From positions 1-64,000 of IMG/VR virus record IMGVR_UViG_3300046820_001014: 64,000 nt of DNA. One strand, given 5' to 3'. The translations under genes were made by a program, and so were the position numbers. The number at the start of each line of letters is the position of its first letter. The first letter of the stretch is position 1. Shown here in pieces: positions 19,701-62,510 of the stretch. This DNA is from a virus. The notes under the pieces were generated by a model. The model did no database searches. It saw only the letters and a program-made list of their open reading frames with translations, and was not told the DNA's origin.

Positions 19701-22700
19701 GAGAGTGGAATGGTTACTGCAGTTGATGGTAAATCTCTTTATGATAACTTAAAGATGAATCTTGAGGGTCTTGAGAATGAGCAATTTATTCCTGTACTTG
19801 AGAAACTAGCTAGTAGTAAAAAAGAAACTCCTTATACTAAGAGTATGAAAGAGTTCTTAAAACTCTTTAAAGCTGATCAAACATTTAGAACCCAATGTTA
19901 CAATGCATTTTCTAATTACTTTGTACCATCATACTCATCTAAGATTGATATTGCAGCTACACTAGTTGATGAAGAAACAGGAAAATCTACTAGAGGATTT
20001 GAGAGTAAAGTTTATGCTAATAATGCTGAGAACTATGTTGAGACTCAAATGGATACTTGGAGAGCACAACTCTTCGGTAAAACTTTAGAAAGGATTGAAA
20101 GTCCAGAAGACTTATTAAAATACATTACCATTCAGGATGAGGTATTTGATAGTCCTGCAGGAATTCCACTTATTGAATCTCTTATTAACTCTATTAATAA
20201 TAAACTAGCTACTAGAACTTCAGTAGATATTATTAACATGATTACTACTGGTAAGGATAATATTACCTTACAAAAACTAGCTGCTGAGAATATTCAATAC
20301 AGAATGGATCTTGGAGACCTTACTTATAAGTTTGGTGGTAAAAACTTCTACTCTATGCTTAAACAAAATTATGTGTTTAAACAACTTAAGAATTCTGAGA
20401 AGTATAAAGGTAAGTGGGGAGTATTTACTGGTGTAAACTTTAGATTAAAAACTGATAGTAAAGCTGAACAAGAACTTTATAAAGAAATAGATCCTGCTAC
20501 ATATTTCTTAACCAACTTACAACTTTATGGTGACCAAGATAAAAATGGAAATAGCTGGTATATTCCACAACAGATGGAAAATAAGAGTACTGTAGTTATT
20601 GTTAAAGGTAAAGGTAAAAGTAAAACTGACTTAAGTCCTGCTATAACTGAAGAGATTACTAGACAGACTGCATTAATTGATAGGTATATTAAAGAACTTA
20701 AATCCGGTAAATCTCTTATTAAAGGATTTCACACTTATGATAAAGTTCCTGCTGAGATTAAAAGTTTAAAAAACTTTGCTAATACTCCTGAATTTATTTC
20801 TTCTCTTATTGAGAAAGGAGTTAAAAGAGAGTTGCTTCCAAGAGCATATCAGTATATAAATATTGTTGGTGCTAATGAAACTCTTTCTACTCAGAAACCT
20901 ACTTATAATGAAAGTCTAACTTTAAATTTTATTAGAGATGAAGTTTTAGATATTAAAGATATTATTACTGAGTTAGGTCTTCCTGATGAAATATTAGCTA
21001 AAACACTTAAGATTGGTAAACAAGAAGACGTTAATAAAACTTTAATAAATTTTGCAATCTCTCAATACTTAAATAGGATGGAGATGCTTGCTGCTATGAA
21101 TCCTGAGTTAACAAAGTATAAAGACTTTGTAGATATTACTAAGAGAGGTGCAGGTCTTCTTCTTGCTGGACCTTCTCATTATAATGCTGATAGACCTGCA
21201 ACTTTTGGAACAGTAGTTCTTAAAGATGTAGAGTATACTATTAATAAAAATACTATGGAGAGAGATTCTCTTGATGGATTAATAGATGAAGAAGAAATAA
21301 AAGAAAAGAAAAAATTACTTAAGGAAATAAAAGCTACTGATGGTCAGAGTATTGAGACTATTGGTAGAAGATTAGATAGACACCTTAGACTTGGTAGAGC
21401 ATCTGAAGATCCTAATAATGATTTTTATAAGAAAGCAGAAATACTACAAGCTTATAAAGATGATGATAGAGCTAAGATTGCTGAATTAGATAGTGGTGAT
21501 ATGGCTCTAATGGTAGATAAGACTGGAGGATTTGATGGAAAGAAATATATTAAAACTTCCATATTTCCTCTTACTAGAAGTTTTACTTCTATGCAAGTAC
21601 CTGCTGGTACTGAAGGGGCTGTAGTAGATACTTATAATGGTAAATCTTATCTTCCTTATCCTCATAGAATTGAATCTTATAACCAGTTTAATAAGTTACA
21701 AGCTCTTGAAGTTGAGGTAACTAATACTAAAAGAGCTAGTGGTGAGATTAAGAAAACAGATAATATATATTTTGAAGCTCATTTTGCTAGTGCTATTAAG
21801 TTAGGACTAACTGATATTAATCCATTAGATGCTGAGAAATATGAGTACTCAGAATATAATAATGCTGATTACAGACTTCAACAGGAGAATCCATCTGGTA
21901 AAGATGAGATTAAAGATGGCACTCAATTAATTCAACTTATTGGTGCATTCCTTCCTGATGATATACAGTTCTCAGGAGACTTTAAAGAATATATAGGACC
22001 TAATGCTAGACAAGAAATTCTTAAAGATATGTCAAGAATGTTGGCAGATCTTAGAGAGTTTGATAGAAGAATGATTCCTAATGCTTTTAAAAAGCTACAA
22101 CTTCTTGGAGAAAAGAATGGAGGTATTTATGTACCATTTATTAAGTATCTACAAGATAGTAAAGAAACTTCTTCTGGTTCTGATAATGATTCTGAGTTTC
22201 TAGCTTCTAAGGATGGAGAGTTTATCTACTCTCAGAATATGCCAAACCTTATTAATGGTTATGAGCAAGCATTTATATCCTACTTTAATAAGAATCTATT
22301 CTCTCAAAAAACTCCAGGAGGTAAGGCAACTCTAGTAGCTGCTACTTATTCTGAGGTTATGGAACTTAATGGTGAAGTAATTAGTACTTGGGAATTTGAG
22401 AATAAACTTACTGCTGAAGAAAGAGCACAAGTAACTACAAGACCTCTTAAGTGTCATAAACCTAGTGGTAATCTTGAAGATACTTATGCTGAGGTTGTTT
22501 TATCTGAGGAATACCTTGAAGATATTCTTGATATTAGTCTTGAGGAGTACCACAACTTAGCTAGTGAGATGAAGGAGAAAGTTAAAACTATTCTAGGTTT
22601 CAGGATTCCTACTCAGTCTCACCATTCTATGATGCCTTGTAAGGTAGTAGATTTTGCACCTAGACATTATGGTTCAATAGTTATTGCTCCTGCAGAAATT

Positions 22701-25700
22701 ACTTATCTCTCAGGTGCTGATTATGATGTGGATAGTTTATTCTTTCAAAGATATGGTTTCTATAAAAATAAAGAAGGTAAATTAGGTCAAGTACAACTAG
22801 ATGCTAATACTTACTTCTCTACAATTATGGATAACAAGATTGTTAAGGATTACATGAAGATGAATAATCCAGAGTTAGATGTTATTAAAGTAGACATTGC
22901 TAAAAATAAAGCTGCTGTTAAAGCTTATAATATTAAACTTAGAGAATATGAAACTAATCCTCCGTCAAATTTAGAGCTTATAAAAAGTGCACAATTTAAT
23001 TTAGCTGAGGCTAAAAGTTATATAAAACTTAGACAAAGAGATTTATATAATCAAAGTAGACAAGCACTTACAAGTATACTTGAGACATTAGGTTTTCCAA
23101 CTACTGAAAAAGAGTTTAGAGCTTTAGATAGTAAAGAAAAAGCTACTTTTATTAAGGATTATAGTAATAACTCACTTCTTTCTACACGTTTAAATATTCT
23201 TACTTCTAGTTTTGAAGGTAAGTTTGCTCCTGCTATTGATAAGTTTCAAGAAATATCTAAAATAGATGAAGGTAAATTTGCTAAGTATTTTCCTAAAGCT
23301 AAGGAATCTAAGATATATACCTCATTTGTTACATTCTTTAAACACTATCTAAATAACTACTCAGGAGGTAGAGCTATTGGTGCATCAGCAAATGGTAATA
23401 AAGTATTTGCTAACTTGCATGCTACTAATAGTACTATCTCTGAGACTCTTAAAGGTGATCTTGTAAGAAGTATTAATAGAGAACTATTTACTGATACTAA
23501 TCAAATATATGGTGTAGATTGTCCATTTATAGAGGTAGATGGGAAAATAAGATTTGGTGTTTTAGGTAGTGATTCTAAAGCAGATAATCTTTCTTCTGCA
23601 GTATCTATGACTGTAGATAATGTTAAGGAACAGACTCTTGTTAAGTTTAACTTAAATGATAAAACTATGCCACTACTTACTACTGCTTTTGGTATAGGTA
23701 TTGGTAATAATGTAATGGCAGCATTCCTATTAAATCCAATAACAAAACTATTCTCTCAAACTTTCATGAAGAAATCTTCTGCATTTGGAGAGAAAGGAGT
23801 TACTATGAGAACTGTTATTGCTGGTATGCAAACTGATGTACAAACTGAGTATTCTAGACCAGTTGATGCTGAAGGACTTTATCAAATAAATCAATCTAAC
23901 TTAAATGATTTCTTAAGTGATGCTACAGAAGATACTGCTAGAAAACTAGAGATACTTACTAAGTTTGTAAATGGAGATATTAAACTACAACAACTTGAGG
24001 ATGCAGATAAACAATTTATAGAAAGACAATTTGCATTACTTGATTTATACTCAAGTATTGCTGAGATTGCTGAAGACTCATTTGTAATTAATACTCTATT
24101 AAACTTAAATAAAGAACTTGGAGAACAATCTTCTGATGTAGATTATGTTCTTGCTAGATTTGATAAAGCTAAAAAAGGTGATGATCCTGAGGGGATGCCT
24201 CCATCAAGATTCTCATTTGATTATAAAATAACTTCTTCTGTACAAGCTAATATTAATAGTGTTGTTACAGCAAAAAAACTTCTTGATGAGAATTTATTAT
24301 TCTATGGAGAAAACATGCAAGAACTATTTAAGAATGTAGATAATGTATGTTTAGGAACTCCTAATAGTAAATCAGATTTTGAGAGTAGAGTAGAGATGAA
24401 GAAAGAATTCTTGAACTTTCTTACTATTAGAGCTTACTCTAGATTTAATCAAAGTTCTATGGATATTAATAATCTTGATTTGATTAAGGGAGGACTTGTT
24501 AAAATGTATGAGGAAAATAAAGATGCTATTCTTAAATATCCTTTTGGACAAATGCTTAAGCCTCTTGAACCTACAAGACAATATCCATTTGGAAGACTTG
24601 GTGTAGATTCTTTTAAGAAACTAGATCCAAGAAAGAAAGATGATATTATGGATAGTTTTGCAGGTATGCTTATTGATCCAGAAACTAAAGAGTTTGCAAT
24701 TGGATTACTATCCTTTATAGCTTCTCATGATAACTTTAGATTCTTAGGACAATCTGCAGTATCATTTATGAGACCAAGTATCTTTAATGCTCTTAATGAG
24801 ATTGTTAAAGGAACAGATTCTTTAGATGGTGTAGAAGAGTTCTTTGTACAAACAGATAAAGGTAAAGTTATAGATACACAGAAAGTAGCATCTAGTTTAA
24901 CTGATGATGGAAACTTTGATAAACTGTTTAAAGATTATCTCTCATTCTGGTTCTCTGATAATAGAAATGCTAAGAAACTTGATAAACTTACAAGTAAATT
25001 ACTTAAGAGTAAAGGTGGAGAACTTTATATAGAAACTAAAGATATTAAGAATATTCCTTTAGTAACATTCTTTAGTACTGAAGATGGTAGAGTTCCTGTA
25101 ATATTAGAAGGTAAGGCAGGAGGTAAAGCTTACTATAAAGTTATTAGAAGACCTAAGAATGGAACTAGTTTAAAACTTTATCAACTTACTAATACTGATA
25201 GTGCAAACTTTATTGATAGTGCTGCTAAAGCAACAACTCCTAGTCCTGAGGTTACTGCAAAAATCATTAGTATGATTAATAGCATAACTACTCTTCCAAG
25301 ATTAGAAGGATATATAGAAACTCAGAAAACTCAGTTTGATGCTCTTAATGATGAGATTATAAATGCTCTTAATGCTAAAAGAGCTGCATTAGGAAATGTA
25401 ACTACTACTCCAACATCTACTCAACCAAATAATACAAATAAACCTGAATTTGATAAACTTCCAAGTAAGTCTGCAACACCTACTATGACTTATGCAGGTA
25501 TAGGATCTAGACAATCTCCACAAGATGTTCTTAATTTAATGACTGAAGCTGCTAAATATCTTGAAACTAAAGGTTACACACTTAATACAGGAGTAACTTT
25601 TAATGGAAAAGAAGAAGGAGCTGATGGAGCATTCTCTAAAGGAACTTCTAAAAAGAATTTATTTTCTCCAGAAAATCAAGGTTCTAGAACAAAAGAACAA

Positions 25701-47340: not shown

Positions 47341-47731
47341 TTTTTAATCTGTTTTCTAATTCATAAATAAATATTAAATGATAAGCTACCCATTGATTAC
47401 TTGCAGTAGCTTTATTCTCTGCAAGATTTTCAGTAAAGTATCTAAGGATACCTGCAATGTGAGGAGTAGTAAGATCTTTAAGAGGTTTATAAACAGTCTC
47501 AGGAAGCCTATTATTAAACTCATCATAGTTCTGTCCCCATATAAAGACTTCTCTTATCTCAGGCATCAAGTCATAAATAGTACTTTCCTTTAAGTTACCT
47601 ACAACTCTAGTATAATCAAAACCTCCATCTATTAAGATAAAGTTACCTTCATCATCAGTATCTTCTTTAAAATCATGTCTATGGAAAGAAAATAACTTTC
47701 CATTTTTATTCTCTACATATCCTATTCTCAT
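47324..47731 (-). CDS. Conserved phage protein of unknown function
   Basis: The 135-residue protein contains S-F-H-R-H-D-F, then I-D-G-G-F-D-Y-T-R and E-I-R-E-V-F-I-W-G-Q-N-Y-D, a pattern I associate with uncharacterised small proteins in Bacteroidetes phages. The C-terminal half is helical. Its ATG overlaps the stop of the HNH gene as ATGA. No catalytic assignment is possible. Confidence 0.55.
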   Translation of the reverse strand: MRIGYVENKNGKLFSFHRHDFKEDTDDEGNFILIDGGFDYTRVVGNLKESTIYDLMPEIREVFIWGQNYDEFNNRLPETVYKPLKDLTTPHIAGILRYFTENLAENKATASNQWVAYHLIFIYELENRLKNDWNK

Positions 47732-48240
47732 TTTGTTATTTCTTTACTTATTCTTATTTCTTTTAGTGCTGGTGCTAATTTCATAAAATCTTCATAACTA
47801 AATATATCTGATTTAAGTCTATTACATGTCCAACAACAAGGGGCAACATTATCTATTGTGTAACCTTTTAAGTTATCTTTTCTATCTAATTGATGTGCTC
47901 TAGAGAAATTTTTACCCCAATTTTTAGAATATTTATTATAAACTAGCTCTTTACCACAGTAAGTACATTCATTATGTAAAATTATTTCTTTAAATTCCTC
48001 AAAACTTAAAGTAAATTCTACTTTTCTGTTTCTGTGATTTTTTAATTCATTATAAATAAATAAATATTCCTCTCCTTTTTGAGTACAACTTCTACATTTA
48101 CAACTGTGAGTTTTTAAACTTCCAGCCTGTAAAGATAATTCTTTACCACAACCTAAACAATTATAGATGTAGATTTTATATCTAACTCCTTTTCCAGTTA
48201 CTCTTGTTTCTTTTCTTAAACAATTTTCTTTTAATAACAT
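47728..48240 (-). CDS. HNH homing endonuclease between nrdA and a conserved gene
   Basis: The 170-residue protein has two zinc-binding regions: an N-terminal set (C-L-G-C and C-K-C-R-S-C) and the HNH core near 112-150 (C-T-Y-C-G-K-E, then H-Q-L-D-R-K-D, G-Y-T-I-D-N-V, and C-C-W-T-C-N-R-L-K). It lies just after the nrdA stop. A CGTATAA box is 28 bases upstream, and a small hairpin (AGTGT/ACACT at 48248-48265) lies between box and start. Flanking genes seem whole. Confidence 0.88.
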   Translation of the reverse strand: MLLKENCLRKETRVTGKGVRYKIYIYNCLGCGKELSLQAGSLKTHSCKCRSCTQKGEEYLFIYNELKNHRNRKVEFTLSFEEFKEIILHNECTYCGKELVYNKYSKNWGKNFSRAHQLDRKDNLKGYTIDNVAPCCWTCNRLKSDIFSYEDFMKLAPALKEIRISKEITK

Positions 48241-48283: not shown

Positions 48284-49999
48284 TTAACCTTCACAAAACA
48301 CACACTCTTCAAATGTGCTACCTTTCATATCTCTAGACAAAATAGATTCTGTCCTTACATAGTATAAACTCTTAAGTCCTTCTTCCCAAGCTGTGTAATG
48401 TACTTTATTAAACCACTTAGGTTCTACATCAGCAGGAAAGAATAAGTTTAAGGATATACCTTGATCTATAAACTTTTGCCAAATAGCAGCTTGTTTAACT
48501 AACTCTAACTGATTAATCTCATAAGCTGTAAGGAAAACCTCTTTTTCTTCATCTGTAAGAAACTCACACCATTGACAAGAACCTTTATGCTCTACTGCTA
48601 ACTTATTCCAAAATTCAAATGTATTATGTTCTGAGTATTTCTTAGATATAAGTCTTTCAAAGTTATAATTTCTTCTGATAAAAGTTCCTTTAGCAGATTG
48701 TTGAGTCCAAGCATTAGCTACAATAGGTTCTAATCCTTGAGATACTCCACTACTAACTAATGAGTTTGTTGTAGTTGGAGCAATAGCAAAGAGTGCTAAG
48801 TTTCTATTCTCATCACACCACTCAGGTTTACTTAATAGATTACCATACTTCTTATTATAAGATTCTCCCTGCTCCTTCATCCAAGATCCTATCTTATAAG
48901 ATAGCCCTCTTGTTTGTAGAGATATAAATGGAATTTTCTTCTTTTGTAAATATGTATGCCAACCAAGTATTCCTAATCCTAGTAATCTACTCTTCTCAGC
49001 AAATCTTACAGCATTCTCAAATCCAGGTTTACCCTTAGCTTGAGATATAAAGTAAGACATATTAGTATCTAAGAATAATAGAGCTAACTCTATAAACTCA
49101 GGATCTTTCATTATATCATCTATATAAATAGCATTAATAGATGCTAAGTCACAAACTACAGTATGAAGCTTATCATGAGGAGCCATAATTTCAGTACAGA
49201 TATTAGTACCATCAATCTTTAAGTTTCTCTTAACCATATCTGCAGGTTTAAACTTATTAGCATTATGATAGTACATAATATAAGGCTGACCAGTCTTCAT
49301 TCTAGCAGATAATGTTTCTGCCCATAGCTCTAAGTTCTCGGAGTTAGTTTTTAAGGATTCCATAAAGTAATCATCAATAGTAAAACAGTGATTTAAGTTT
49401 AAACACTGTCTATTAACATCACCCTTAGGTTGTCTCATCTTTAAGAACTCCTTAGCATCCTTATGTCTAATAGGTAGATTAATAGATGCCGCACCTCTCC
49501 TAACAGAACCTTGATTAGCTGCTATAATAGCACTATCATATACCTTTAAGAAAGGTATTACACCTTCACTAAATCCTCCTACACTAATTGGTTCACCTCT
49601 ACCTCTAATCTTATCTACTGTAATACCAACACCACCTCCCATCTTAGTAAGAAGAGCTAACTCATGAGCTTTTAAGTAAATATTATCTAAGGAGTCTTCT
49701 ACTCTTTCTATAAAACAAGAAATTGTAAATCCTCTTGTAGTACCAGTATTCGCAAGTATAGGTGTGGCTGGGCATAACCAACCTTTCCACATATATTCAA
49801 ACCATTTATCTTTAATTTTACCTCTATCTAAATTAGTAAAAACCTCATGATCTAAATATTGAGATAAAGTAGTAGCAATTCTCCCATACATTTCTCTAGG
49901 AGTCTCATTATCTAAAAGATGTTGTCTTTTTAAGGTTTTTAAACCTTCCTCTTTCATCCATTCAGGATAATCTACACCTTCTTTCCAGTTATCTATCAT
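48284..49999 (-). CDS. nrdA: Ribonucleotide reductase large subunit (class I alpha)
   Basis: The 571-residue protein has the class I alpha hallmarks. An early redox Cys lies in F-T-I-S-C-F. The active-site segment is N-I-C-T-E, a second redox Cys lies in V-V-C-D-L-A-S-I-N, and the C-terminal C-V-F-C-E-G tail provides the relay thiols. There is no N-terminal ATP-cone: the first 70 residues lead directly to the barrel, so overall activity control by ATP/dATP is probably absent. It reduces NDPs to dNDPs with NrdB, whose gene is 4 bases upstream. Confidence 0.95.
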   Translation of the reverse strand: MIDNWKEGVDYPEWMKEEGLKTLKRQHLLDNETPREMYGRIATTLSQYLDHEVFTNLDRGKIKDKWFEYMWKGWLCPATPILANTGTTRGFTISCFIERVEDSLDNIYLKAHELALLTKMGGGVGITVDKIRGRGEPISVGGFSEGVIPFLKVYDSAIIAANQGSVRRGAASINLPIRHKDAKEFLKMRQPKGDVNRQCLNLNHCFTIDDYFMESLKTNSENLELWAETLSARMKTGQPYIMYYHNANKFKPADMVKRNLKIDGTNICTEIMAPHDKLHTVVCDLASINAIYIDDIMKDPEFIELALLFLDTNMSYFISQAKGKPGFENAVRFAEKSRLLGLGILGWHTYLQKKKIPFISLQTRGLSYKIGSWMKEQGESYNKKYGNLLSKPEWCDENRNLALFAIAPTTTNSLVSSGVSQGLEPIVANAWTQQSAKGTFIRRNYNFERLISKKYSEHNTFEFWNKLAVEHKGSCQWCEFLTDEEKEVFLTAYEINQLELVKQAAIWQKFIDQGISLNLFFPADVEPKWFNKVHYTAWEEGLKSLYYVRTESILSRDMKGSTFEECVFCEG

Positions 50000-50003
50000 A
50001 TTC

Positions 50004-50948
50004 TTAAAATAAATCTGTTCCTTTAAAAGTTACATCTGTATAATCACTTACTCTAACAGCAAAGAAATCTCCAAACTTTTGACCAGAACTTAACTCATCA
50101 AACCAACTCATCTCTTGTAAAAGAGTAGGATCTACATAGAACTGAGGATCGTAACCTAATTCCTTAGTCTTCATATTAATTCTATGAGTAATAAAGTTTT
50201 TAAGTTGTTCTTTAGTAAGAGTTCTAATAGAATCTTCAGCAAATAATTGATCTATAAAAGCAAATTCTAAATCTTTAGTTACTTTAGCAGCTTCATAAAT
50301 ATCTTCTCTAACCCAGCCTCTAGTAGAAGGACCTTCTTTACATAAAGTATTAAAGAGATATATACCTCCAATAGAGTGTAAATTTTCATCTCTAATAGAA
50401 TAGTTAACTATTTGAGATACACCCTTAAGTAAGTTTTCTTTCTGAAAAGATAAGAGTACTGCAAAACTAGAGAATAGTACACAACCTTCAGCAAATGCTG
50501 AGAAGATAGCTAAACTTGCTGCTACATCATGTGTGTCATAAGTGTTAGGTACTTCTAAGAAATAATCTAATTTATTCTTAGTTTTTTCATCATGTAAAAA
50601 AGCTTTAAAATCATCCAATCCTAATTCCTCATTAATCATGGCATAGTTATCCATGTGTATTGATTCAAAGTAAGAGAATGCACTAGCCATCATAGCTACT
50701 TCTGGTTTAGGGAACCATTCAGCTACTCTTCTCCAGTAATCTCCTACTAAAATTTCCATTTGAGTAAATCCTTTTAAGATTCCTCCAATAACATTTTTTT
50801 CTCCTTGAGAGAGTGTATTCCAATCTTGAATATCTTGAGAAAGTTTAATCTCATCTTTAGTCCAGTGAACTAATTGCTGCTTGCGATAAAAATCATAAGC
50901 TTCTGGATATTCAAATGGTCTATAATAAGACCTATTATCTGTTAACAT
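50004..50948 (-). CDS. nrdB: Ribonucleotide reductase small subunit (class I beta)
   Basis: The 314-residue protein carries the di-iron ligands in F-E-S-I-H-M-D-N-Y, E-G-C-V and D-E-N-L-H-S. A Tyr lies four residues after the His in E-S-I-H-M-D-N-Y, the place of the radical Tyr122 in E. coli NrdB, so a tyrosyl-radical enzyme is expected. It generates the radical used by NrdA, encoded directly downstream. Its C-terminus (T-D-V-T-F-K-G-T-D-L-F) is probably the NrdA-binding tail. Confidence 0.93.
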   Translation of the reverse strand: MLTDNRSYYRPFEYPEAYDFYRKQQLVHWTKDEIKLSQDIQDWNTLSQGEKNVIGGILKGFTQMEILVGDYWRRVAEWFPKPEVAMMASAFSYFESIHMDNYAMINEELGLDDFKAFLHDEKTKNKLDYFLEVPNTYDTHDVAASLAIFSAFAEGCVLFSSFAVLLSFQKENLLKGVSQIVNYSIRDENLHSIGGIYLFNTLCKEGPSTRGWVREDIYEAAKVTKDLEFAFIDQLFAEDSIRTLTKEQLKNFITHRINMKTKELGYDPQFYVDPTLLQEMSWFDELSSGQKFGDFFAVRVSDYTDVTFKGTDLF

Positions 50949-52787: not shown

Positions 52788-53726
52788 TTAAATATTAATT
52801 AAATAACTATTATTATACTCCTCAAGAGTATAATTCCACTCATTTTTCTCCATATGCCACTTAATTCTTTTTAAAAGATTGTTATATTCTATCTCTCCTC
52901 TATCAATTTGAGTATCAGAAATCTTATAACAATGTCTTGTAAAGAATTGAGTATCAACTACCGGCATATAACAAGAGAAAGAATAATCTGGAAATACTGT
53001 AGATAATGCAAGTTTATAGAAAGCCATTTGTCTGTAATACTTCCAGAACTCAAAACTCTCTGGAAAGAACTGTGCTCTCTTAGATGTAGTCTTTAGATCT
53101 ACAAGTACACAATACTTCTCCTTATGGTTTATAATAACTCTATCAAGTCTACTTTTACAAGGTATATCTAAGTACTCAAAGTATATCTCATACTCATTAA
53201 ATATCTCACAATTACTCCAATCTTGAAAGAGATACTTAGTACAAGCAGCATGAGATCTTAGAGCATTAACACATCCTTCTATAACTCCTTTCTGCTCTCT
53301 AGTCATAAACTGCTTACCTTGATTAAGTTCCAGTTCTGCTATATACTCATAAATATTACTTTTCTTAAGTGTATTTAAAAGAGTCTCATCTTTATAGTTA
53401 TTATAATAAGATGCTAATCTTGCAGCTTTAATAAGAACTTCATCCTGAGTCTCAACAAGATGAGAATCTTTAATCTGAAAGTATTGTGTAACTACATTAC
53501 ACAAACTCTCATTAGGTTTAGCTACCTCTGATACAACAAACTCTTCAGGACTCTCACAATACAGATGTAGGAGGCTTCCGTTTTCTAGACTTGGGCTTGG
53601 AGCTAACTTTTGTATTGTTCCCTCCAGATACATCTGAAACAGCTTTGGACTTCCTCCTTGCTCTGGGTTTATCAGGGATAGAGTGCTGTTGGCTATCTCC
53701 CTCCTCTCGTAATAATTGGTTATCAT
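52788..53726 (-). CDS. PD-(D/E)XK exonuclease, Cas4/RecB-like
   Basis: The 312-residue protein has the exonuclease VIII/RecB-like layout: an N-terminal segment leading to E-N-G-S-L-L-H-L-Y, then a nuclease core S-R-L-D-R-V-I-I-N-H, then V-L-V-D-L-K-T-T-S, giving the D...DxK site. A Q-M-A-F-Y helix follows, as usual. It would resect DNA ends for recombination with the SSB-like and Sak4-like proteins. Its first 58 codons overlap the upstream nuclease gene in another frame, and those residues are needed for the family N-terminus. Confidence 0.82.
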   Translation of the reverse strand: MITNYYERREIANSTLSLINPEQGGSPKLFQMYLEGTIQKLAPSPSLENGSLLHLYCESPEEFVVSEVAKPNESLCNVVTQYFQIKDSHLVETQDEVLIKAARLASYYNNYKDETLLNTLKKSNIYEYIAELELNQGKQFMTREQKGVIEGCVNALRSHAACTKYLFQDWSNCEIFNEYEIYFEYLDIPCKSRLDRVIINHKEKYCVLVDLKTTSKRAQFFPESFEFWKYYRQMAFYKLALSTVFPDYSFSCYMPVVDTQFFTRHCYKISDTQIDRGEIEYNNLLKRIKWHMEKNEWNYTLEEYNNSYLINI

Positions 53727-54087
53727 ATATTTTTTTAATTTGTTCTAATACTTCCCTACATTGTTCTTGATTTCTAGGCATAAAGAATAAGTGGTCAGAA
53801 TACTTAAATTTGAACATCTTATGCTTAATCTTAGCTTTCTCCTCAAGAAGTCCCTTTGTCTCAATAACTATCTTACTATCTGTAAGATAAAAATCAGACA
53901 CATACTCTATCTTTCTAATAGTTTTACCTTCATACTTAAAACTAGGTTGAATCTCAAAAGGTTCTTGTAGTTTTAAGCATGTAAGTAAATTATTACTTTC
54001 TAAGAGTTTGTAAAAATACAACTCTAATCCACTATCAAAGATTAAGTTGTTATACTTAATCTTCTTAGTGGCATAATATTTCCTCAT
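53554..54087 (-). CDS. DUF1064-like (T7 endonuclease I-type) nuclease with basic tail
   Basis: Residues 1-85 match DUF1064 phage nucleases: F-D-S-G-L-E-L-Y-F-Y (E catalytic), L-K-L-Q-E-P-F, Y-V-S-D-F-Y and I-V-I-E-T-K-G (D...ExK). The last about 60 residues are a disordered Arg/Lys/Ser-rich tail. That tail is encoded where the gene overlaps the next nuclease by 173 bases, so it may be a by-product of overprinting. A junction-resolving or debranching role is inferred from the family. Confidence 0.78.
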   Translation of the reverse strand: MRKYYATKKIKYNNLIFDSGLELYFYKLLESNNLLTCLKLQEPFEIQPSFKYEGKTIRKIEYVSDFYLTDSKIVIETKGLLEEKAKIKHKMFKFKYSDHLFFMPRNQEQCREVLEQIKKIYDNQLLREEGDSQQHSIPDKPRARRKSKAVSDVSGGNNTKVSSKPKSRKRKPPTSVL

Positions 54088-54098
54088 AATATTTTATA

Positions 54099-54689
54099 CT
54101 AAAATGGTAGCTCAACATGATTTATAAACTTAGTTCTTTCCTTAACTAAGTTCTCAACAAATCCAGCTAATAATTCTTCTTTAAAGCCTTTTACATCTTT
54201 AATACTATCAAACTCATATACTTTATGAAAGATATCATAAAGATTAGTAAATTCCTCATGTATAACCAACTCAGGTGTATAATCCGGATTTCTACCTTCT
54301 ACTCTACCTCCTATACTAGTATAAAATCTTTCTACATGCTCAGAATATGTATTATAAAATGCTTTAGTTACATGTATAACATTTTTTGTATAATAACCAA
54401 TATCTACTTTCTTTTTACACAAAAGAAATACTATGTTACCATCTAAATCATAAATACTATCATAGAATACATAATATGGAAAGAAAGACTTTAAGTACTT
54501 TCTATTATGAGTGCTTTTTGTATTACAAAGTAATTTTGCAAAACAATCAAATAGAGTAGTTCTAGTCTTCTTAATTGAGAATGGTTCATAATTAAAAAGA
54601 TTTACTTTCCACTTATTTATGTGAGGTATTTTAGTGGAAGCATAATACTGTCTTACTAAAGCTCTTAATTCATCTGTTGTTACTGCCAT
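54099..54689 (-). CDS. Unknown protein linked to the ubiquitin-like cassette
   Basis: The 196-residue protein is mixed alpha/beta and aromatic-rich (F-F-P-Y-Y-V-F-Y) with a helical C-terminal third. It overlaps the E1-like gene by 10 bases, so it is probably co-expressed with the Ubl, E2-like, JAMM and E1 proteins and may be a substrate, adaptor or target. I recognise no motif: no JAMM, no E2 cysteine context and no P-loop. Confidence 0.5.
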   Translation of the reverse strand: MAVTTDELRALVRQYYASTKIPHINKWKVNLFNYEPFSIKKTRTTLFDCFAKLLCNTKSTHNRKYLKSFFPYYVFYDSIYDLDGNIVFLLCKKKVDIGYYTKNVIHVTKAFYNTYSEHVERFYTSIGGRVEGRNPDYTPELVIHEEFTNLYDIFHKVYEFDSIKDVKGFKEELLAGFVENLVKERTKFINHVELPF

Positions 54690-55351
54690 GTCAAACCATT
54701 AAAAGTATGAAAGAAAGGTACTTCTCTAATCTCTTCACCAATATCTTCAATATGTTTCTGATTAGCAAGATAATTACATAAGAGTGCTACAGCTTGAGTT
54801 GCTACCATAGCTGCATAATGTCCTGTCTGCTTGTAGCTACAAGGTAAATCAGGTATCTCATCATCTCTTCTCAAAGAATCAAGATACATCTGTACATGTT
54901 CTTCCTTATGTACACAGAATATTTGAAACTCTTCTGCTTGCAATCTGGTATCTATAAAGATTTTTCTATCTTCTGTCTTACACCACTCCTCAAACATAAG
55001 TTTTCTAGCTTCCATATTGTCAAACATAGCAAAGCAGTAAGGAGTTACCTCACAACCTTCTTCATATTTACCAAGATCATCTAAGATACCATTAGAATAT
55101 TCTTTAATCATAACAGCAACTGCTGCAGCTTTAGGTTTACCTAAATCATCATACCTAAAGAATTGACAATCTAAATTTACATCCTCTACAGTATCCATCT
55201 CATAAGCAATTAAATGATGCCTAAGTCTGGATAGAAAGAAAGCTACATAAGCACCTACACCACCAAGTCCCCCTAGAATAATTTCTAGGGGTTTTTCTGT
55301 TACAAATGGTGCTGCTGAGAATCTACTAAATTCTAAACGATTATACCTCAT
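54680..55351 (-). CDS. E1-like (ThiF/MoeB family) adenylyltransferase
   Basis: The 223-residue protein has the ATP-binding G28-x-G-G-x-G33 and D53-x-V-E-D-V-N59, as in E1/MoeB/ThiF enzymes. Q63, D-L-G-K-P-K74 and D111-N-x3-R116 also follow the family pattern. A P170-C-S-Y-K segment resembles the E1 catalytic-cysteine crossover loop, making C171 the likely thioester residue. Unusually, the Arg of N-L-x-R-Q is replaced by C62. No zinc CxxC pairs are seen. It would adenylate the C-terminus of the Ubl encoded three genes upstream. Confidence 0.85.
   Translation of the reverse strand: MRYNRLEFSRFSAAPFVTEKPLEIILGGLGGVGAYVAFFLSRLRHHLIAYEMDTVEDVNLDCQFFRYDDLGKPKAAAVAVMIKEYSNGILDDLGKYEEGCEVTPYCFAMFDNMEARKLMFEEWCKTEDRKIFIDTRLQAEEFQIFCVHKEEHVQMYLDSLRRDDEIPDLPCSYKQTGHYAAMVATQAVALLCNYLANQKHIEDIGEEIREVPFFHTFNGLTWQ
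55270..55296 (+). terminator. Intrinsic terminator-like hairpin antisense within the E1 gene
   Basis: CCCCTAGAA (55270-55278) pairs perfectly with TTCTAGGGG (55283-55291) around TAAT and is followed by five T and then C. It would work only for transcription on the plus strand, against the resident gene, whose codons here specify the start of the nucleotide-binding glycine motif. Confidence 0.4.
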
Positions 55352-56369
55352 TGCTTAAAAGATATTCTTGCCACTCCTTATCAGTCATTCTGGAAATATC
55401 TTTAACAGGTTTACTACTTCCAAAGGTAACTTCCTCAAAATCATCTTTAAGATCATCTAGAAGAGAATAGATAGCACCTAAACCATCAACAATAAGAGTC
55501 TTATGTTTATGTTTACTATCAACATCATCAATAAAGTTAATTAATTGAAAGAGAGAAGCTTTAGTAGCAATATCTTTACCTTGCTCTACATGATCTATGC
55601 AAAGTTTTTCTACCTGATCTAGGTATACCTCAACATCTTCTGGAGTTCTAATCTCATCCAGAGCTTCTTTTAAAGACCTAAACTTAAAATTAATAGTACC
55701 AATAGAGTACTTAGTAATAGGAGAAACTTTATAGTGGGGAGTATAAAAAGGTAAATGAGTTTGGGCATTAACAACTTTAGTAGCTTCTTTAGCTTTAAAG
55801 ATTGTATCAAACTCTTCTTGAAAATCACTACCATTTGCACCAGAGATACTTACAGGTAAAGAAAACTCCATAATAATTTTACCATCAGTAATATCTTTAG
55901 ATGTATAGTTACTATCCATACCTCTAACACCTACAGTTTGAATAATCATATCAGTAGCAATCCTAGCATTAAAATCTAATTTATTATTAACAATAACAGA
56001 TAGATGAAAAGGAAAGTTACTTATATTATCATATAGATGTTTATCATCTACACCTGATGGGCTTACACCCATATTATGATGAGAGTGAATACTGAAAAAC
56101 ATTACAGGCCACTTCTCTGAGTTATCCTCAAAATAATCAGCTAATGTTGATCCCCAATCATATTCTGTGTAACCAGAAGTACCTACATCTTTAAGTATCA
56201 AATCTATTACATGTAGTTGTAGAGTATCATCATAGATATCTCCCTCAACCTTCATGACACCTACTCCACTCCACTCTATATTAGAGCACCTGGAATTGAA
56301 ATACTTGATTTTCTCCAACACTCTGTTCTCCAGAGTTATTGGATTCTTTAGATTTTTTTTTATAATCAT
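55341..56369 (-). CDS. JAMM/MPN metallo-isopeptidase
   Basis: The 342-residue protein has a complete JAMM zinc site: E32 in E-W-S-G-V-G and H95-S-H97-x7-S105-x2-D108. JAMM enzymes remove or mature ubiquitin-like proteins. The C-terminal half (about 200-342) is a helical extension of unknown role. Its first 29 codons overlap the E2-like gene by 89 bases, and E32 shows that this early start is needed. It overlaps the E1 gene by 11 bases. Confidence 0.87.
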   Translation of the reverse strand: MIIKKNLKNPITLENRVLEKIKYFNSRCSNIEWSGVGVMKVEGDIYDDTLQLHVIDLILKDVGTSGYTEYDWGSTLADYFEDNSEKWPVMFFSIHSHHNMGVSPSGVDDKHLYDNISNFPFHLSVIVNNKLDFNARIATDMIIQTVGVRGMDSNYTSKDITDGKIIMEFSLPVSISGANGSDFQEEFDTIFKAKEATKVVNAQTHLPFYTPHYKVSPITKYSIGTINFKFRSLKEALDEIRTPEDVEVYLDQVEKLCIDHVEQGKDIATKASLFQLINFIDDVDSKHKHKTLIVDGLGAIYSLLDDLKDDFEEVTFGSSKPVKDISRMTDKEWQEYLLSNEV

Positions 56370-57411
56370 TGTAAATTTTATTTATTAAGTCTTCTTTAGC
56401 ATAATTATTCATAAAATACTGCAACCAATCATCAATATCAGTGTAAAGTACTCTTGAGTTTTTATATATTGTAGTATGTTTTTTATGTTTAATGTGTCTA
56501 CAATCAAACATTACATGACTTGAGAGTTTCTCTAATTTATCTTGTTTAATAGTATTATCCTCAGAAAACAAATGAAAATAATCTTTCTTAAGATCAGAAC
56601 TATTAAGGTTAAGTTTAACTTCATTCTTAAGTACAGAAATAGAGATATACTTATGAATATTATTTAATAGTTCTTCATTATTAAAGATAATACTCTGAAA
56701 TTCTGATTTTGATAAATTTTTACCTTTATTTAACTTATCTAAAGCATAATAATGATCACCATGTTCTGTCTTTTGAGAAACAGTTCTATAGAAATTTACC
56801 CAAAATATATCAGCATCATTCTCATCAAATGTATCATGATCATAATGCAAATTAGTAAGAGACATTGATAGTGGAGAAGATCCCATACAAAAAGAACTAA
56901 AATCACTACTTAAGTGAGGATGTATAAATTTAGGATTATTAATATCTACAGTAGTTCTAAAACCTCTTAGAGAAACAGTATCTATATAAAAATACATATC
57001 TCTAAGCTCAATAGGATTTCTACCAGTATTAACTTCTTGTAACATTATTTTTGGAAAATGAAATCCTAGATAATAATTTCCACTAACAGTAATTAATCCT
57101 ATTTTACAAACACTCTCATCATATAACTCAGAAGCTTTAAGCTTTCTATATTTCTGTATAAGACTAAGTTGAGTGTGATCTAGAGCATTTTTATTAAAGT
57201 TACTTAAGTTTGTAAAAAAACTAGTATCTCTACCATTAATTTTCTCATTAAGACTTGTAAAACCTAATGAGTAATACTCATAAATCCTCCACTTATTATA
57301 TTGTTTGGTATACTCCTCAACATCAATATCTAAACTGAAAATAGGTCTAAGAGCTCGGGGCCTCCTAAGAAGCCCCTTAATCTCTTTAAACTTATTACTT
57401 CTGAGTTGCAT
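56281..57411 (-). CDS. E2-like conjugating protein candidate
   Basis: In the 376-residue protein, H164-P-H-L-S-S-D-F-S-S-F-C175-M-G matches the E2 pattern of H-P-N/H, a short loop, then the catalytic Cys. It is preceded by beta-strand-rich sequence (V-C-K-I-G-L-I-T-V, then Y-Y-L-G-F-H-F-P), as in E2 and bacterial E2-like folds. Its place between Ubl and JAMM/E1 genes supports the call; related E2-like proteins occur in bacterial PRTRC-type clusters. The C-terminal 150 residues are charged and helical. A GC-rich hairpin lies in the early codons. Confidence 0.65.
   Translation of the reverse strand: MQLRSNKFKEIKGLLRRPRALRPIFSLDIDVEEYTKQYNKWRIYEYYSLGFTSLNEKINGRDTSFFTNLSNFNKNALDHTQLSLIQKYRKLKASELYDESVCKIGLITVSGNYYLGFHFPKIMLQEVNTGRNPIELRDMYFYIDTVSLRGFRTTVDINNPKFIHPHLSSDFSSFCMGSSPLSMSLTNLHYDHDTFDENDADIFWVNFYRTVSQKTEHGDHYYALDKLNKGKNLSKSEFQSIIFNNEELLNNIHKYISISVLKNEVKLNLNSSDLKKDYFHLFSEDNTIKQDKLEKLSSHVMFDCRHIKHKKHTTIYKNSRVLYTDIDDWLQYFMNNYAKEDLINKIYNDYKKKSKESNNSGEQSVGENQVFQFQVL
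57357..57376 (-). promoter_or_regulatory. GC-rich hairpin in the 5' coding region of the E2-like gene
   Basis: On the minus strand GGGGCTTC and GAGGCCCC pair over 8 bases (one G-T) around a TTAG loop, 36-55 bases into the E2-like gene. There is no T-run, so it is not a terminator. It stands out in such AT-rich DNA and might slow translation or mark an RNA processing site. Confidence 0.35.
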
Positions 57412-57928
57412 ATTTAGCCTCAGCTAAAACTCTCTCATTGAATTGTGTAGCATTAGAAGTATTTCTAATACCTAGTGCATACTCAACCTCAAATAGTCTT
57501 GCCTCAAGAACAGAACTATCAAATTGTCCTGTTGTTCTCCTTTGTAGTGTTTGCAAAACATCCTCAAGTTTTGCCTTCATTTGAGCTAGAGAATCATGAG
57601 TATAATTACCAATAATATCAATGATTACCTCATCATCATTGGTTACAGCATCAAGTCTGTACTGCTTAAGAGCAGCTCTAACTTCATGATACTCAGCCAT
57701 TGCAGCCTTCATATCCTTAGGAGAGATAAATACTTTAAGGTTACCTTCTGGAAGAGCAGCATCAGCATGCTCTAGAGAGTAAAGAGCCTTACCAACAGTA
57801 ACTGTCTTGTTACTGAAATCTACTGCAGGAAGAGCAGCTACTAGTTGAGAGAAGGTAGATACACCAGCTTCTACCTCAAATTGATTAACCTGTGAATTGT
57901 TTGTTGTTACAACAGTTACTTTACGCAT
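57395..57928 (-). CDS. Ubiquitin-like beta-grasp protein with helical extension
   Basis: Residues 1-70 of 177 look like a beta-grasp fold: strand V4-T-V-V-T, second strand to V19, a helix T25-F-S-Q-L-V-A-A-L, then K41-T-V-T-V. The ubiquitin-like L52-E-H-A-D-A-A-L-P-E-G and final strand L64-K-V-F-I-S-P follow. The remaining about 105 residues are helical. No glycine pair follows the beta-grasp domain or ends the protein, so conjugation chemistry is not typical or needs a cleavage I cannot identify. It overlaps the E2-like gene by 17 bases. Confidence 0.68.
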   Translation of the reverse strand: MRKVTVVTTNNSQVNQFEVEAGVSTFSQLVAALPAVDFSNKTVTVGKALYSLEHADAALPEGNLKVFISPKDMKAAMAEYHEVRAALKQYRLDAVTNDDEVIIDIIGNYTHDSLAQMKAKLEDVLQTLQRRTTGQFDSSVLEARLFEVEYALGIRNTSNATQFNERVLAEAKYATQK

Positions 57929-57939
57929 AACTTTAAGTT

Positions 57940-58896
57940 TTATAAAATTGAATTTAACAAATCCTCTATATATTCATGCCCGAGGATCTTATAGGCATCA
58001 GAGAAATCTTTAATCCCCATTTCTCTGTATTCTTTAGGGAATAATAATACTGGAATATTGAATTTCTTTCTTATAAGTATAGCAGCTTTTTTACCAGCAT
58101 TATCATTGTCTGCAAGATACAAACAATTATACTTATTTACAAGCCATGCTGGAGGGAGAACACTCTCCCCCTGCATAGCTACAGCTTGTATACCAAATAA
58201 TGATAAACATACTACATCCTTATAACTCTTAGTTATTACTAATAGTTTAGGATCATTAATATATTCTATACCTTGTATACTTTTACTATTACTTATAAAT
58301 CTATACTGTTTTCTCTCAGGAAAATAAGCTTTAACAGATGTGTCTGAGAATATGTATAAGAAACACATTTCCTCACCTCTAATGCAATTGACAAAGTTTC
58401 CTTCATTGTTTTTTACATATAAATGCTTGCATGAGTGTATATTGAATTTCTGTAAAACCTCTAAGCCTATACCATATTGTTGCCAGTATTCTAACTCCTT
58501 ATTAGAGAACTCTTTAAAGTTAACTCTTATTTCTGCACTTTTCTTCTTATCCACAAAGCTCAATCTTGCAATCTGTGTTTTATTATTTTTGTTATTTAAT
58601 AAATGATAAGGAATAGTGCTCTTTAAAGTATTATAAATATCCAACAGTGCTTCTTGGTAACTAAGTTTCTTTAGATACATAACAAAAGATATTGCGTCTC
58701 CACAAAACTCTCCTGGTCTGTTATCATAATAACGTAGTATGTTACCATAATATTGAAATGCACATGTTGGAGACTTATCTCTCCTCAAAGGACTTATAAA
58801 GTTACCTTTAACTACTGGAACGCCATAAGCTTCAAATATACTTTCCTGTGAAAAGGTTTTATAAACATAGTCCCTACTTAAATTAGAGACATACAT
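57940..58896 (-). CDS. DnaG-like DNA primase
   Basis: The 318-residue protein begins with a compact zinc-binding-like domain (F-I-S-P-L-R-R-D-K-S-P-T-C and later G-D-A-I-S-F-V), as in DnaG primases. A Toprim region follows: L-V-I-T-K-S-Y-K-D-V, where the usual first Glu is Lys, and L-Y-L-A-D-N-D-N-A-G-K-K-A, the DxDxAG motif. It primes phage DNA synthesis with the helicase encoded upstream. Zinc ligands look incomplete. The gap to the Ubl gene is only 11 bases. Confidence 0.78.
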   Translation of the reverse strand: MYVSNLSRDYVYKTFSQESIFEAYGVPVVKGNFISPLRRDKSPTCAFQYYGNILRYYDNRPGEFCGDAISFVMYLKKLSYQEALLDIYNTLKSTIPYHLLNNKNNKTQIARLSFVDKKKSAEIRVNFKEFSNKELEYWQQYGIGLEVLQKFNIHSCKHLYVKNNEGNFVNCIRGEEMCFLYIFSDTSVKAYFPERKQYRFISNSKSIQGIEYINDPKLLVITKSYKDVVCLSLFGIQAVAMQGESVLPPAWLVNKYNCLYLADNDNAGKKAAILIRKKFNIPVLLFPKEYREMGIKDFSDAYKILGHEYIEDLLNSIL

Positions 58897-60637: not shown

Positions 60638-61267
60638 TTATTCTTTATATTTAAAAATCCATTTGTTTTCATAATTACTTTTAACTCTTTTTTCTAATCT
60701 TGGTTTAATTTTATTTAAACTGATATTTAATTTTAAAGAACATTCTTTAATAGAGTCAAACTCATAAATAATATTATCTTCTAGATCTGTAACAATAATA
60801 GCTCTTTTATTATTTTCAGCCATTACCTTACATCTTTCAGATATAATATTTATAAATTCAATATTTTCTTTCAAAGATTTAGATTGAGCTTTTCTATGAG
60901 ATTCTGGTTTATTAGCTAAATATACCTCTAGCTTTTTTCTTCTATCTGCTCCCCAAGTTACTCCTAAAGTATTACCTGCTGTTTTGCAAATATCATAACC
61001 AAAATTATCATCATAAGACTTCCATAAATCTTTATAATATTGTTCTCTTATTAAACAATCCTCTGAGTTGCAAAACTCTACTATTTCAAACTTAAAATTA
61101 CTTTCACCATATTTGTTAAAAGCATTTTGTAAATGAGTACTAGTATGTTTGTTTAATCTTAATCTATAAAGATGTTCCCACAATCTTCTTTTAATAGTCC
61201 TTGTTGAACTTCCAACATAAACTTTACCATCTAGCAAATTTAATATTTTATAAACTCCTGACAACAT
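60638..61267 (-). CDS. GIY-YIG homing endonuclease
   Basis: The 209-residue protein has the GIY-YIG catalytic start G4-V-Y-K-I-L and K-V-Y-V-G-S-S, and then R-R-L-W-E-H-L, N-A-F-N-K-Y-G and E-Q-Y-Y as in the family. The C-terminal part holds NUMOD-type DNA-binding elements (H-R-K-A-Q-S-K-S-L-K, and Y-E-F-D-S-I-K-E-C-S). It sits between two small open reading frames and the Sak4-like gene and has a CGTATAA box 33 bases upstream. Confidence 0.9.
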   Translation of the reverse strand: MLSGVYKILNLLDGKVYVGSSTRTIKRRLWEHLYRLRLNKHTSTHLQNAFNKYGESNFKFEIVEFCNSEDCLIREQYYKDLWKSYDDNFGYDICKTAGNTLGVTWGADRRKKLEVYLANKPESHRKAQSKSLKENIEFINIISERCKVMAENNKRAIIVTDLEDNIIYEFDSIKECSLKLNISLNKIKPRLEKRVKSNYENKWIFKYKE

Positions 61268-61589: not shown

Positions 61590-61846
61590 AATGAAGCTAA
61601 TAAATCTTCTTTAGTTTTAAATAAAGCAATTGGTAAAACTGTGACTTGTTGTTGGCCTACTATTTGTACACAATATTCTATTTTATTACCCCAATCACAT
61701 AAATTATTAGATCTACATATTCTAACTCCATTAATATCACCAACATTAGGTTTATTATTATACATAAACCAAACTCTATCATCTATATTATATTTTGTTT
61801 CTATTGTCATAAGTTGTTGTAAATTACTTGCATTATTGTTTTTCAT
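61586..61846 (-). CDS. Small beta-barrel-type protein
   Basis: The up to 86-residue protein has a Tudor/SH3-like beta pattern (Y-N-I-D-D-R-V-W-F, then I-N-G-V-R-I, and I-E-Y-C-V-Q-I) and ends F-K-T-K-E-D-L-L-A-S-L. It may start at 61846, inside the end of the GIY-YIG gene, or at the Met 13 codons later (61810), where the domain begins. The later start may be native and the extension a consequence of the homing gene insertion. Confidence 0.55.
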   Translation of the reverse strand: MKNNNASNLQQLMTIETKYNIDDRVWFMYNNKPNVGDINGVRICRSNNLCDWGNKIEYCVQIVGQQQVTVLPIALFKTKEDLLASL

Positions 61847-62510
61847 AATACCATTTAAAATTTTTACACGTTTGTCTGTTATTTACATTCTTACAACATC
61901 TCGAAATATTAGTTGAATCTATGTTAAAAAATCTAGCTGCTTCTCTGGTGCTTTCCCATTCTTTAATAAAGTTACCTTCTAAATCATATTGATAAACTTT
62001 TTTACTCTTTACTTCTGCTAATCTTTGCATAGTAAATTCAGAAGGTTTATTTCCTTTATTAGCTTTAGATATTTTATCCTTAGTTTCTTGAGATTTACGT
62101 CTACCAGATTTTATAAAACCACAAGCAATTAATTCTTCTGTAGTTCTTGTTTTTCTAGGAGAAGTAATATGTGACATACTAATTTTCTTCTTTGTTTCCT
62201 CTGACACTTTTAAACCACTGTTATTCTCAGCTATTTTTCTAATGTTATATTGAGGATTCAAAGAGTCTAAATAATATTGTTCTCTCTCAATTAATATTTC
62301 TTTGCTACACTCTTCAATTATCTCAAAAATAAAACTTTCTTCTTTATGTTTATTCCAAGATACTTGAATATGTTTATTCCGATGTTTGTTATTTCTTAAC
62401 AAATGTTTATGAAGTGTTACTCTTTTTCTATAATTAAAAGCACTTCCTATGTAAATTTTATTATTTACAGTATTTGTTATTTTATAAATAACAGTAATAT
62501 TTAAATTCAT
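61833..62510 (-). CDS. GIY-YIG homing endonuclease with NUMOD domains
   Basis: The 225-residue protein begins V-I-Y-K-I-T-N and K-I-Y-I-G-S-A, the GIY-YIG core, with R-K-R-V-T-L-H and E-Q-Y-Y-L-D-S-L. NUMOD3-like repeats follow (S-E-E-T-K-K-K-I-S and S-Q-E-T-K-D-K-I-S-K-A-N-K-G). A NUMOD1-like helix comes last (E-W-E-S-T-R-E-A-A-R-F-F-N-I). It lies just after the helicase gene with a CGTATAA box 18 bases before its start. Confidence 0.92.
   Translation of the reverse strand: MNLNITVIYKITNTVNNKIYIGSAFNYRKRVTLHKHLLRNNKHRNKHIQVSWNKHKEESFIFEIIEECSKEILIEREQYYLDSLNPQYNIRKIAENNSGLKVSEETKKKISMSHITSPRKTRTTEELIACGFIKSGRRKSQETKDKISKANKGNKPSEFTMQRLAEVKSKKVYQYDLEGNFIKEWESTREAARFFNIDSTNISRCCKNVNNRQTCKNFKWYYEKQ

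Follow-up and report, generated by a model that had tools for sequence, protein, structure and literature searches.

In this work we present a computational analysis of a putative ubiquitin-like conjugation cassette carried by a virus, IMG/VR record IMGVR_UViG_3300046820_001014. The stretch analysed, below called the window, covers bases 1-64000 of this 88,419-base phage record in their full length of 64,000 nucleotides (nt). Its minus strand holds adjacent genes for a ubiquitin-like protein (Ubl), an E2-like protein, a JAMM (JAB) metalloprotease and a ThiF-like E1. An original prediction, made from the sequence alone, had described these as four adjacent, overlapping genes; all four open reading frames (ORFs) were found at the positions it gave (Table 1), and neighbours among them overlap by 17, 89 and 11 nt. 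The order of transcription is primase, the proteins of 177, 376, 342, 223 and 196 amino acids (aa), a Holliday-junction-resolvase-like gene and an exonuclease gene, so that the predicted location between primase and recombination nucleases was recovered as well.

Table 1. Positions of the cassette genes, their parts and the neighbouring genes in the window
Feature	Position	Strand	Basis or remark
Ubl gene, 177 aa: beta-grasp modifier and C-terminal tail	57395..57928	-	ORF, model, fold match, family
Predicted mature modifier, residues 1-76, ends K-A-A	57701..57928 (codon 76 = 57701-57703)	-	K-S-G in relatives
Ubl precursor tail, residues 77-177, helical in model	57398..57700	-	Predicted to be removed by JAMM
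E2-like gene, 376 aa	56281..57411	-	ORF, family, model
UBC-like region, residues 79-215	56767..57177	-	H164-P-H166 (codons 56914-56922), C175 (56887-56889)
JAMM (JAB) metalloprotease gene, 342 aa	55341..56369	-	Catalytic core residues 32-108 = 56046-56276
E1 (ThiF-like) gene, 223 aa	54680..55351	-	Candidate thioester Cys171 (54839-54841); phrog_15670
Gene X, 196 aa	54099..54689	-	Next after E1, 10-nt overlap; possible fifth member
DNA primase gene	57940..58896	-	Directly upstream of Ubl gene; phrog_12622 E 6e-34
Holliday-junction-resolvase-like endonuclease gene	53554..54087	-	Downstream of cassette; phrog_190 E 1.8e-20
Exonuclease VIII-like gene	52788..53726	-	Downstream of cassette; phrog_412 E 1.4e-24

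Relatives were gathered through the E1: seven close loci were taken from IMG/VR, and an alignment of five E1 sequences then gave 103 relatives. Locus counts rest on the best 80 of these 103 E1-selected relatives, several of which are near-copies. In a profile search 75 of the 80 viral loci matched Ubl, E2, JAMM and E1 in that order, and since the order recurs so widely among loci fetched by their E1, we regard the four-gene set as more than a chance arrangement. In the remaining five loci the E1 starts less than 2 kb from a contig end, and wherever 5.2 kb or more lie upstream of the E1 (71 loci), the full set stood in order. The E2 and JAMM genes overlap in 70 of the 75 complete sets. The profiles were built from the fetched loci themselves and match their own members by construction; therefore, sub-alignments of three groups set by us (the window clade, the crAss001 group and the rest, including Flavobacterium phages) were also compared. 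Profile probabilities of the window clade versus the two other groups were 92 and 98.5% for the Ubl, 80 and 96.5% for the E2, 99.6 and 100% for the JAMM protein and 100 and 100% for the E1, while four mismatched-family controls gave 0.1-2.0%.

The named phages were likewise reached through the E1. The gene order, which the original prediction had proposed to look for in other crAss-like phages, is present in the cultured gut phage crAss001 (gp79-gp78-gp77-gp76), cr85 and cr111 as well as in Flavobacterium phage Fpv3, and the motifs were read in the proteins of named phages. Phage DAC15 gave matches to E1 and E2, and in Bajarodcaudo virus 1 three unannotated genes separate the E1 from the primase. 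The E1 and the protease had already been labelled by GenBank annotators: the records of crAss001, cr85 and cr111 name the E1 thiamine biosynthesis protein, give the protease a metalloprotease product name or note, and leave Ubl and E2 as hypothetical. When searched by tblastn, neither the window E2 (against phage records) nor the E1 (against plasmids) gave a match. A scan of genome contigs returned two loci, on a Clostridium contig (L101, matches to all four cassette genes) and on a Spirochaetia contig (L100, match to the E1), both from metagenome-assembled genomes (MAGs); they look like crAss-like phage contigs binned into unrelated bacterial MAGs. In seven loci (L046, L058, L078, L081, L086, L090 and L091) one cassette ORF appears by eye to be in pieces, in some cases with an extra ORF between the pieces, perhaps owing to intervening elements.

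The Ubl family alignment comprised 50 rows, 44 from outside the window clade and six from within it. The best model obtained from it had a mean predicted local distance difference test score (pLDDT) of 83, the other four reaching 72-75, and its elements (strands 3-10 and 13-20, helix 26-32, strands 41-45 and 64-70) follow a strand-strand-helix-strand-strand order. Residues 1-71 were matched in the VIA fold search with Z up to 9.3 (69 residues aligned, 1.9 A), and most of the matched rows are by title ubiquitin, SUMO, UBX, UBL, MoaD-type or DIX domains. Foldseek gave a best E value of just 0.002, with a bacterial Ubl-deubiquitinase complex (8tyx) in the top ten. A beta-grasp fold, as the original prediction had expected, is thus predicted for about residues 1-72, with good support from the fold comparison. 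Nothing useful came from scanning the Ubl and E2 of the window against Pfam, PHROGs and NCBIfam, the Pfam scan of Ubl relatives gave just scattered single-member matches, and the PDB sequence search with the Ubl profile returned unrelated matches only.

The likely end of the modifier lies well inside the protein. Among the 44 rows outside the window clade the Gly of a K-S-G motif is present in all and the preceding Ser in 43, the protein's own last residue shows no conservation, and 5 to 217 residues follow the Gly; one relative, of 82 aa, stops five residues past it. Within the window clade 72 of 76 columns are identical up to residue 76 versus 39 of 101 in the tail, and omega in five comparisons was 0.05-0.16 for residues 1-76 versus 0.21-0.56 for the tail. 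The conserved Gly and the drop of conservation within the clade thus both place the likely end of the functional modifier at residue 76. From the alignment, with its conserved Gly and the variable tail behind it, we predict that the JAMM protease matures the Ubl.

No convincing Pfam domain was found in the Ubl tail; the SAP and HeH DNA-binding domains, each matched in one of the 50 members only, were unconfirmed on re-check and dropped. Phage cr116 (MT774389, L112 8120-8368) encodes, downstream of its primase, an 82-aa stand-alone homologue of this tail. Neither E1 nor JAMM was detected in the cr116 record, nor E2 in the stretch fetched. The cr116 match was considered as a retained Ubl and rejected, being homologous to the tail only. 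With such a homologue at hand, the tail may be a domain with a role of its own.

Residues were counted in family alignments of 43 E1, 47 E2 and 46 JAMM sequences. The full JAMM site that had been predicted, E...HxH(x7)S(x2)D, is present: E32, S34, H95, H97, S105 and D108 occur each in 46 of 46 members. The Prok-JAB domain stays sub-threshold for the window protein (E=0.052), yet 25 of the 46 members match it at E<=0.01; the PDB search with the JAMM profile returned mostly helical designs, with JAMM1 at E 0.98. The identification of the E1 as a ThiF protein was borne out by a Pfam match above cut-off (32.1 versus 28.1 bits), and R10, G28, G30, G31, D53, N59, K74, D111, R116 and C171 are found in 43 of 43 members, residues of the ATP site among them. 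Of the solved proteins UBA5 comes closest to the E1 profile (E 1.5e-12), with MccB, PaaA and tRNA threonylcarbamoyladenosine dehydratase next. In UBA5, a minimal E1, the catalytic residue Cys250 lies in the crossover loop (PMC12355090), and by analogy C171 of the phage E1 would occupy the equivalent place. Purifying selection is clear for the E1, the Ubl and the JAMM core.

In the E2 alignment H166, C175 and G177 occur in all 47 members and H164 in 42, the other five having Gln, while position 165 is Ser or Pro throughout; apart from M1 the invariant positions are H166, C175, G177 and G218. From H166 to C175 there are 8 to 30 residues in the family and 8 in the window protein, in which the predicted HPH...C motif was read as H164-P-H166 and C175. 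Classical E2s carry HPN and then a Cys a few residues on, and for that reason we read H[SP]H-Cys as a variant of it: an HPN-type motif precedes the invariant Cys, with His where the Asn would be. The E2 model (mean pLDDT 76.6) runs from a helix at 79-92 through strands within 103-156 and the HPH and Cys stretch to further helices, which we take to be the UBC order. By title, UBC or UEV chains filled 19 of the top 24 rows of the VIA search, at Z just 3.4-4.5 and 3.7-5.5 A, and Cap2 appeared at Z 2.8; BilB and UFC1 chains were absent among the listed rows, which excludes nothing. The viral Foldseek library gave five matches at E<=0.001, all to unnamed or uncharacterised phage proteins, two of them crAss-like. 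Pfam and NCBIfam scans of the E2 relatives produced scattered single-member matches only.

An E1 relative in Xanthomonas phage PhiXhv-12 (228 kb; L104 4241-7615) adjoins an 893-aa protein in which HPH...CLG can be read by eye, resembling the phage E2 motif, and whose ends are cysteine-rich; no JAMM match was found in the stretch fetched.

A Ubl, a ThiF-like E1 and a JAMM protein could also act as a sulfur carrier, yielding a thiocarboxylate for the modification of tRNA, a DNA base or a metabolite. Trios of Ubl, JAB and ThiF do occur in sulfur-transfer operons (Iyer et al. 2006, PMC1779556), and the best NCBIfam matches of the E1 are ThiF adenylyltransferases, far below cut-off. We nevertheless find this explanation very improbable, as the complete loci hold a fourth protein, with invariant His and Cys and a UBC-like model, which sulfur trios do not need. 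Rhodanese, sulfurtransferase and cysteine synthase were not seen among ten scanned window proteins, and Iyer et al. treat E1-JAB-E2 operons as separate systems.

Starting from what was computed here, namely the genes, their conserved order, the invariant catalytic residues, the predicted beta-grasp fold, the conserved terminal residue and the purifying selection, we infer every chemical step of the following mechanism, and its target. The JAMM protease would cut the tail off the Ubl precursor behind residue 76, a Gly in relatives and an Ala in the window, and the small, UBA5-like E1 would adenylate the carboxyl end of the modifier with ATP and hold it as a thioester on Cys171. The modifier would then move to Cys175 of the E2, whose HPH would stand at the classical HPN place, and the E2, with no E3 in sight, would join it to amino groups of target proteins, from which the JAMM protease could take it off again. 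In our judgement the cassette is probably a phage-encoded reversible Ubl conjugation system, with its target most likely in host take-over or counter-defence.

A number of results weigh against reading the cassette in this way. The UBC fold that the original prediction had placed around C175 is suggested by the prevalence of UBC and UEV chains in the VIA search, but not by the strength of the matches: Z is low, ranks 1 and 2 are THO-complex chains (Z 4.8 and 4.7), and Foldseek against the PDB found none at E<=0.001, the best being 0.17. The predicted template modelling score (pTM) of the E2 model is 0.63; the E2 profile had no match at E<=10 among the sequences of solved proteins, and the Pfam scan of the 47 members no UBC match. 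Support for the UBC fold is, as a consequence, suggestive and modest to moderate. Omega is highest for the E2 (0.38-0.66 in five comparisons versus 0.13-0.21 for the E1), which could fit shifting targets or an arms race, or else a weaker, relaxed constraint, the latter being unfavourable to our reading. The whole-chain pTM of the Ubl is 0.45, and neither an E3 nor a substrate is visible for the cassette. Finally, Lys-Ala-Ala replaces K-S-G in six of six window-clade Ubl rows, so the window modifier is without the terminal Gly of its relatives, and a Gly-to-Ala change in an E. coli CD-NTase, the modifier of a CBASS system, lowered conjugation (PMC10097602).

These last two points might mean that the relatives conjugate and that K-A-A has turned the Ubl of the window clade into a mere binding partner. 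We consider such a loss improbable: the window E1, E2 and JAMM protein keep all their catalytic residues, and residues 1-76, K-A-A included, are nearly frozen in the clade. Moreover, conjugated CBASS CD-NTases end in Gly or Ala, and an Ala-ending system from E. cloacae conjugates (Jenson et al., PMC10097602); because natural Ala-ending CD-NTases do so, Ala at residue 76 is compatible with conjugation.

The original prediction had likened the cassette to PRTRC, Bil and CBASS operons. The similarity in working stood, and membership in any of the three did not. PRTRC, which we equate with the type 6d operons of Iyer et al. 2006, has counterparts of all four proteins, arranged in the same relative order: C (Ubl), B (E2), A (JAB) and ThiF. 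PRTRC and phage profiles matched with 98.7% for the E1 and 45% for JAB (two PRTRC sequences), whereas no profile similarity was found for Ubl and E2 (<1%; five PRTRC sequences each). The phage E1 scored 22.3 bits, far from the PRTRC_ThiF cut-off of 144.75 bits. PRTRC_B was not among the matches of the 47 E2 members at E<=0.1 and reached 0.4% in hhalign; five PRTRC_B proteins carry Asn (YFN, YYN or FPN) before CxG, where the phage E2s have HSH or HPH. A PRTRC_B search matched neither the window's record nor any of 14 control genomes and is hence uninformative. On plasmids, proteins E and F and ParB accompany the PRTRC cassette.

Bil operons also comprise Ubl, E2, JAMM and E1 genes, but there BilA carries a pair of Ubl domains, BilD a Cys domain besides two adenylation domains, and BilB a CEHH motif (PMC11354881). 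The phage set departs from this architecture with a single beta-grasp domain in the Ubl model and a minimal 223-aa E1, and in its E2 the conserved His precedes the Cys, with no invariant Glu or His after it. Type II CBASS shares the E1, E2 and JAB chemistry and a modifier ending in Gly or Ala; its Cap2, however, is an E2-E1 fusion (PMC12355090) and its modifier is the CD-NTase, not a beta-grasp protein (PMC10097602), whereas the phages have separate E1 and E2 genes and a small beta-grasp Ubl. No CD-NTase match was obtained among the five proteins run through PADLOC, nor was a CD-NTase noticed near the cassette. The UBA5-UFM1-UFC1 pathway resembles the phage set in having an E1 without a Cys half-domain, UBA5 being the nearest solved relative of the phage E1, and differs in that UFM1 is matured by another kind of protease. 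A further likeness is the ending of UFM1 in Val-Gly rather than Gly-Gly, and further differences are that its pathway is eukaryotic and has an E3 (PMC12355090).

Among viruses, Lambda has a comparable pair in TAPI and TAPK, a Ubl extended at its C terminus and a JAB protease for which cleavage at the Gly is predicted (PMC1779556), although this module has no E1 or E2 and belongs to the tail rather than to replication. JAMM-type deSAMPylases have been reported from archaeal Borg elements (PMC12660748), the nearest virus-like case that we found. Kinship with PRTRC, Bil and CBASS is one of a like mode of working, not of membership; the class of mechanism is known, and what appears to be new is a lineage that phages carry and that has a modifier and an E2 of its own.

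That host Bil and CBASS share this chemistry could also mean direct counter-defence, a use already raised in the original prediction, with the phage set competing with host CBASS or Bil tags or its JAMM protease stripping them, and weak matches of the E1 to PADLOC E1-E2 models (E 0.00047) would agree. For stripping, however, the JAMM protease alone would suffice, and the purifying selection on E1, E2 and modifier suggests a use in conjugation; we give direct interference with host tags only a small chance.

E1 relatives were found in 78 phage records with the window query and in 83 with that of cr85, the latter including a few weak ThiF-like matches in Xanthomonas, Erwinia, Moraxella and Acinetobacter phages. 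The crAss001 primase matched 139 phage records and the crAss001 E2 45. Of the 75 complete sets, 31 have the primase immediately upstream of the Ubl gene. In the window clade the two genes are neighbours in all 12 primase contigs that continue beyond the primase; four others end at it. Position between primase and recombination nuclease genes, together with this adjacency, would suit a core replication regulator, i.e. conjugation that modifies phage replication or recombination proteins (e.g. primase, SSB, nucleases) as ubiquitin and SUMO modify PCNA in eukaryotes. The set is also well retained once present within the replication operon, a further point in favour of replication and to the disadvantage of a conflict role. 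Phages with related primases, on the other hand, often lack the set: none of 64 more distant primase loci had any cassette gene in the fetched flank (several flanks being shorter than 1 kb), and in a whole-record search none of 15 relatives without the set had an E1 or JAMM, with three of three positive controls detected; 12 of these 15 are IMG/VR records and perhaps incomplete. Mapped on a primase tree (87 rows), the label 'cassette' requires nine changes, at least seven of them forced by well-supported branches, against 25.5 in shuffles; the figure of nine is rough, because some rows labelled 'none' have short flanks.

In two crAss-like relatives unrelated modules fill the primase-adjacent slot. 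In cr108 (Steigviridae; NC_055878, L111 7277-12863), which nests among cassette bearers on the primase tree, it holds an ATP-grasp protein, a COOH-NH2 ligase and a glutamine amidotransferase, all above cut-off, and also a peptidase C26; we regard them as another kind of module in this sister phage, one for modifying proteins or peptides. The same locus of cr116 carries a fragment of an rIIA-like ATPase (HATPase_c E 5.8e-5, just under the Pfam cut-off), along with two genes that bear the annotation 'protector from prophage-induced early lysis' and have no Pfam match. Homologues of rIIA are counted among poorly understood counter-defence systems (PMC7824862). Since these two set-less sister phages carry other conflict-type or protein-modifying genes in this place, we favour a role in conflict over core replication, which we think rather unlikely; the argument from the slot stands on two phages only, and this speaks against our preference. 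Most likely the cassette is used in host take-over or counter-defence, acting on host proteins or on phage proteins shielded from attack. More tentatively, and with somewhat less than even confidence, we propose a complete viral lineage of Ubl signalling, with a modifier and E2 separate from those of the compared bacterial systems, that has spread through crAss-like and flavobacterial phages and tags host (or own) proteins from an exchangeable conflict slot adjoining the primase, taken in sister phages by rIIA-type or amide-ligase modules.

In the open-licence PMC literature no paper joining crAss-like phages with ubiquitin-like conjugation was found among the matches listed; subscription papers, supplements and preprints lay outside the search, and for this reason the result is no proof of novelty. 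Terms for these genes were absent from the main texts of PMC6235969 (crAss001), PMC7886860 (crAss genome survey) and PMC10172136 (crAss001 virion atlas), and JAB and ThiF from the portion of the jumbo-phage review PMC7824862 that was covered. Work on bacterial Ubl conjugation has so far treated it as an anti-phage weapon of the host or as a cassette of plasmids. A complete set in phages, including cultured crAss001 and Flavobacterium phages, would show viruses using the same chemistry. It would provide a likely identity for the hypothetical gp79 and gp78 of crAss001 and a new reading of gp76 ('thiamine biosynthesis protein'), and the cultured phage-host pairs make the question testable.

Gene X is a possible fifth member of the cassette. 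Of 79 parsed loci, 76 have an ORF of at least 90 aa that starts near the end of the E1, often overlapping it; E1 remnants rather than X account for at least three of these ORFs (L081, L090, L091). Between the two non-window groups X is related (96.8% profile probability), while the window version, at 1.5 and 34% versus these, is not shown to be related.

The large terminase of the window phage belongs to phrog_6681. Its tblastn matches fall in 158 phage records, mostly of uncultured, Bacteroides or Flavobacterium phages, the top ones being Flavobacterium phages at 35% identity; by this sequence comparison the phage is crAss-like in a broad sense. A Sak4 gene is also among the scanned near neighbours of the cassette. 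Homing-endonuclease-like proteins, presumably of the GIY-YIG and HNH kinds, were noticed by eye among the replication genes of the window at 60638-61267, 61833-62510 and 47728-48240. A single ORF of 4712 aa spans 13785-27923 and may encode a crAss-type RNA polymerase protein. At 48284-49999, next to a small-subunit-like gene (50004-50948), a ribonucleotide-reductase-like large subunit of just 571 aa was likewise noticed by eye.

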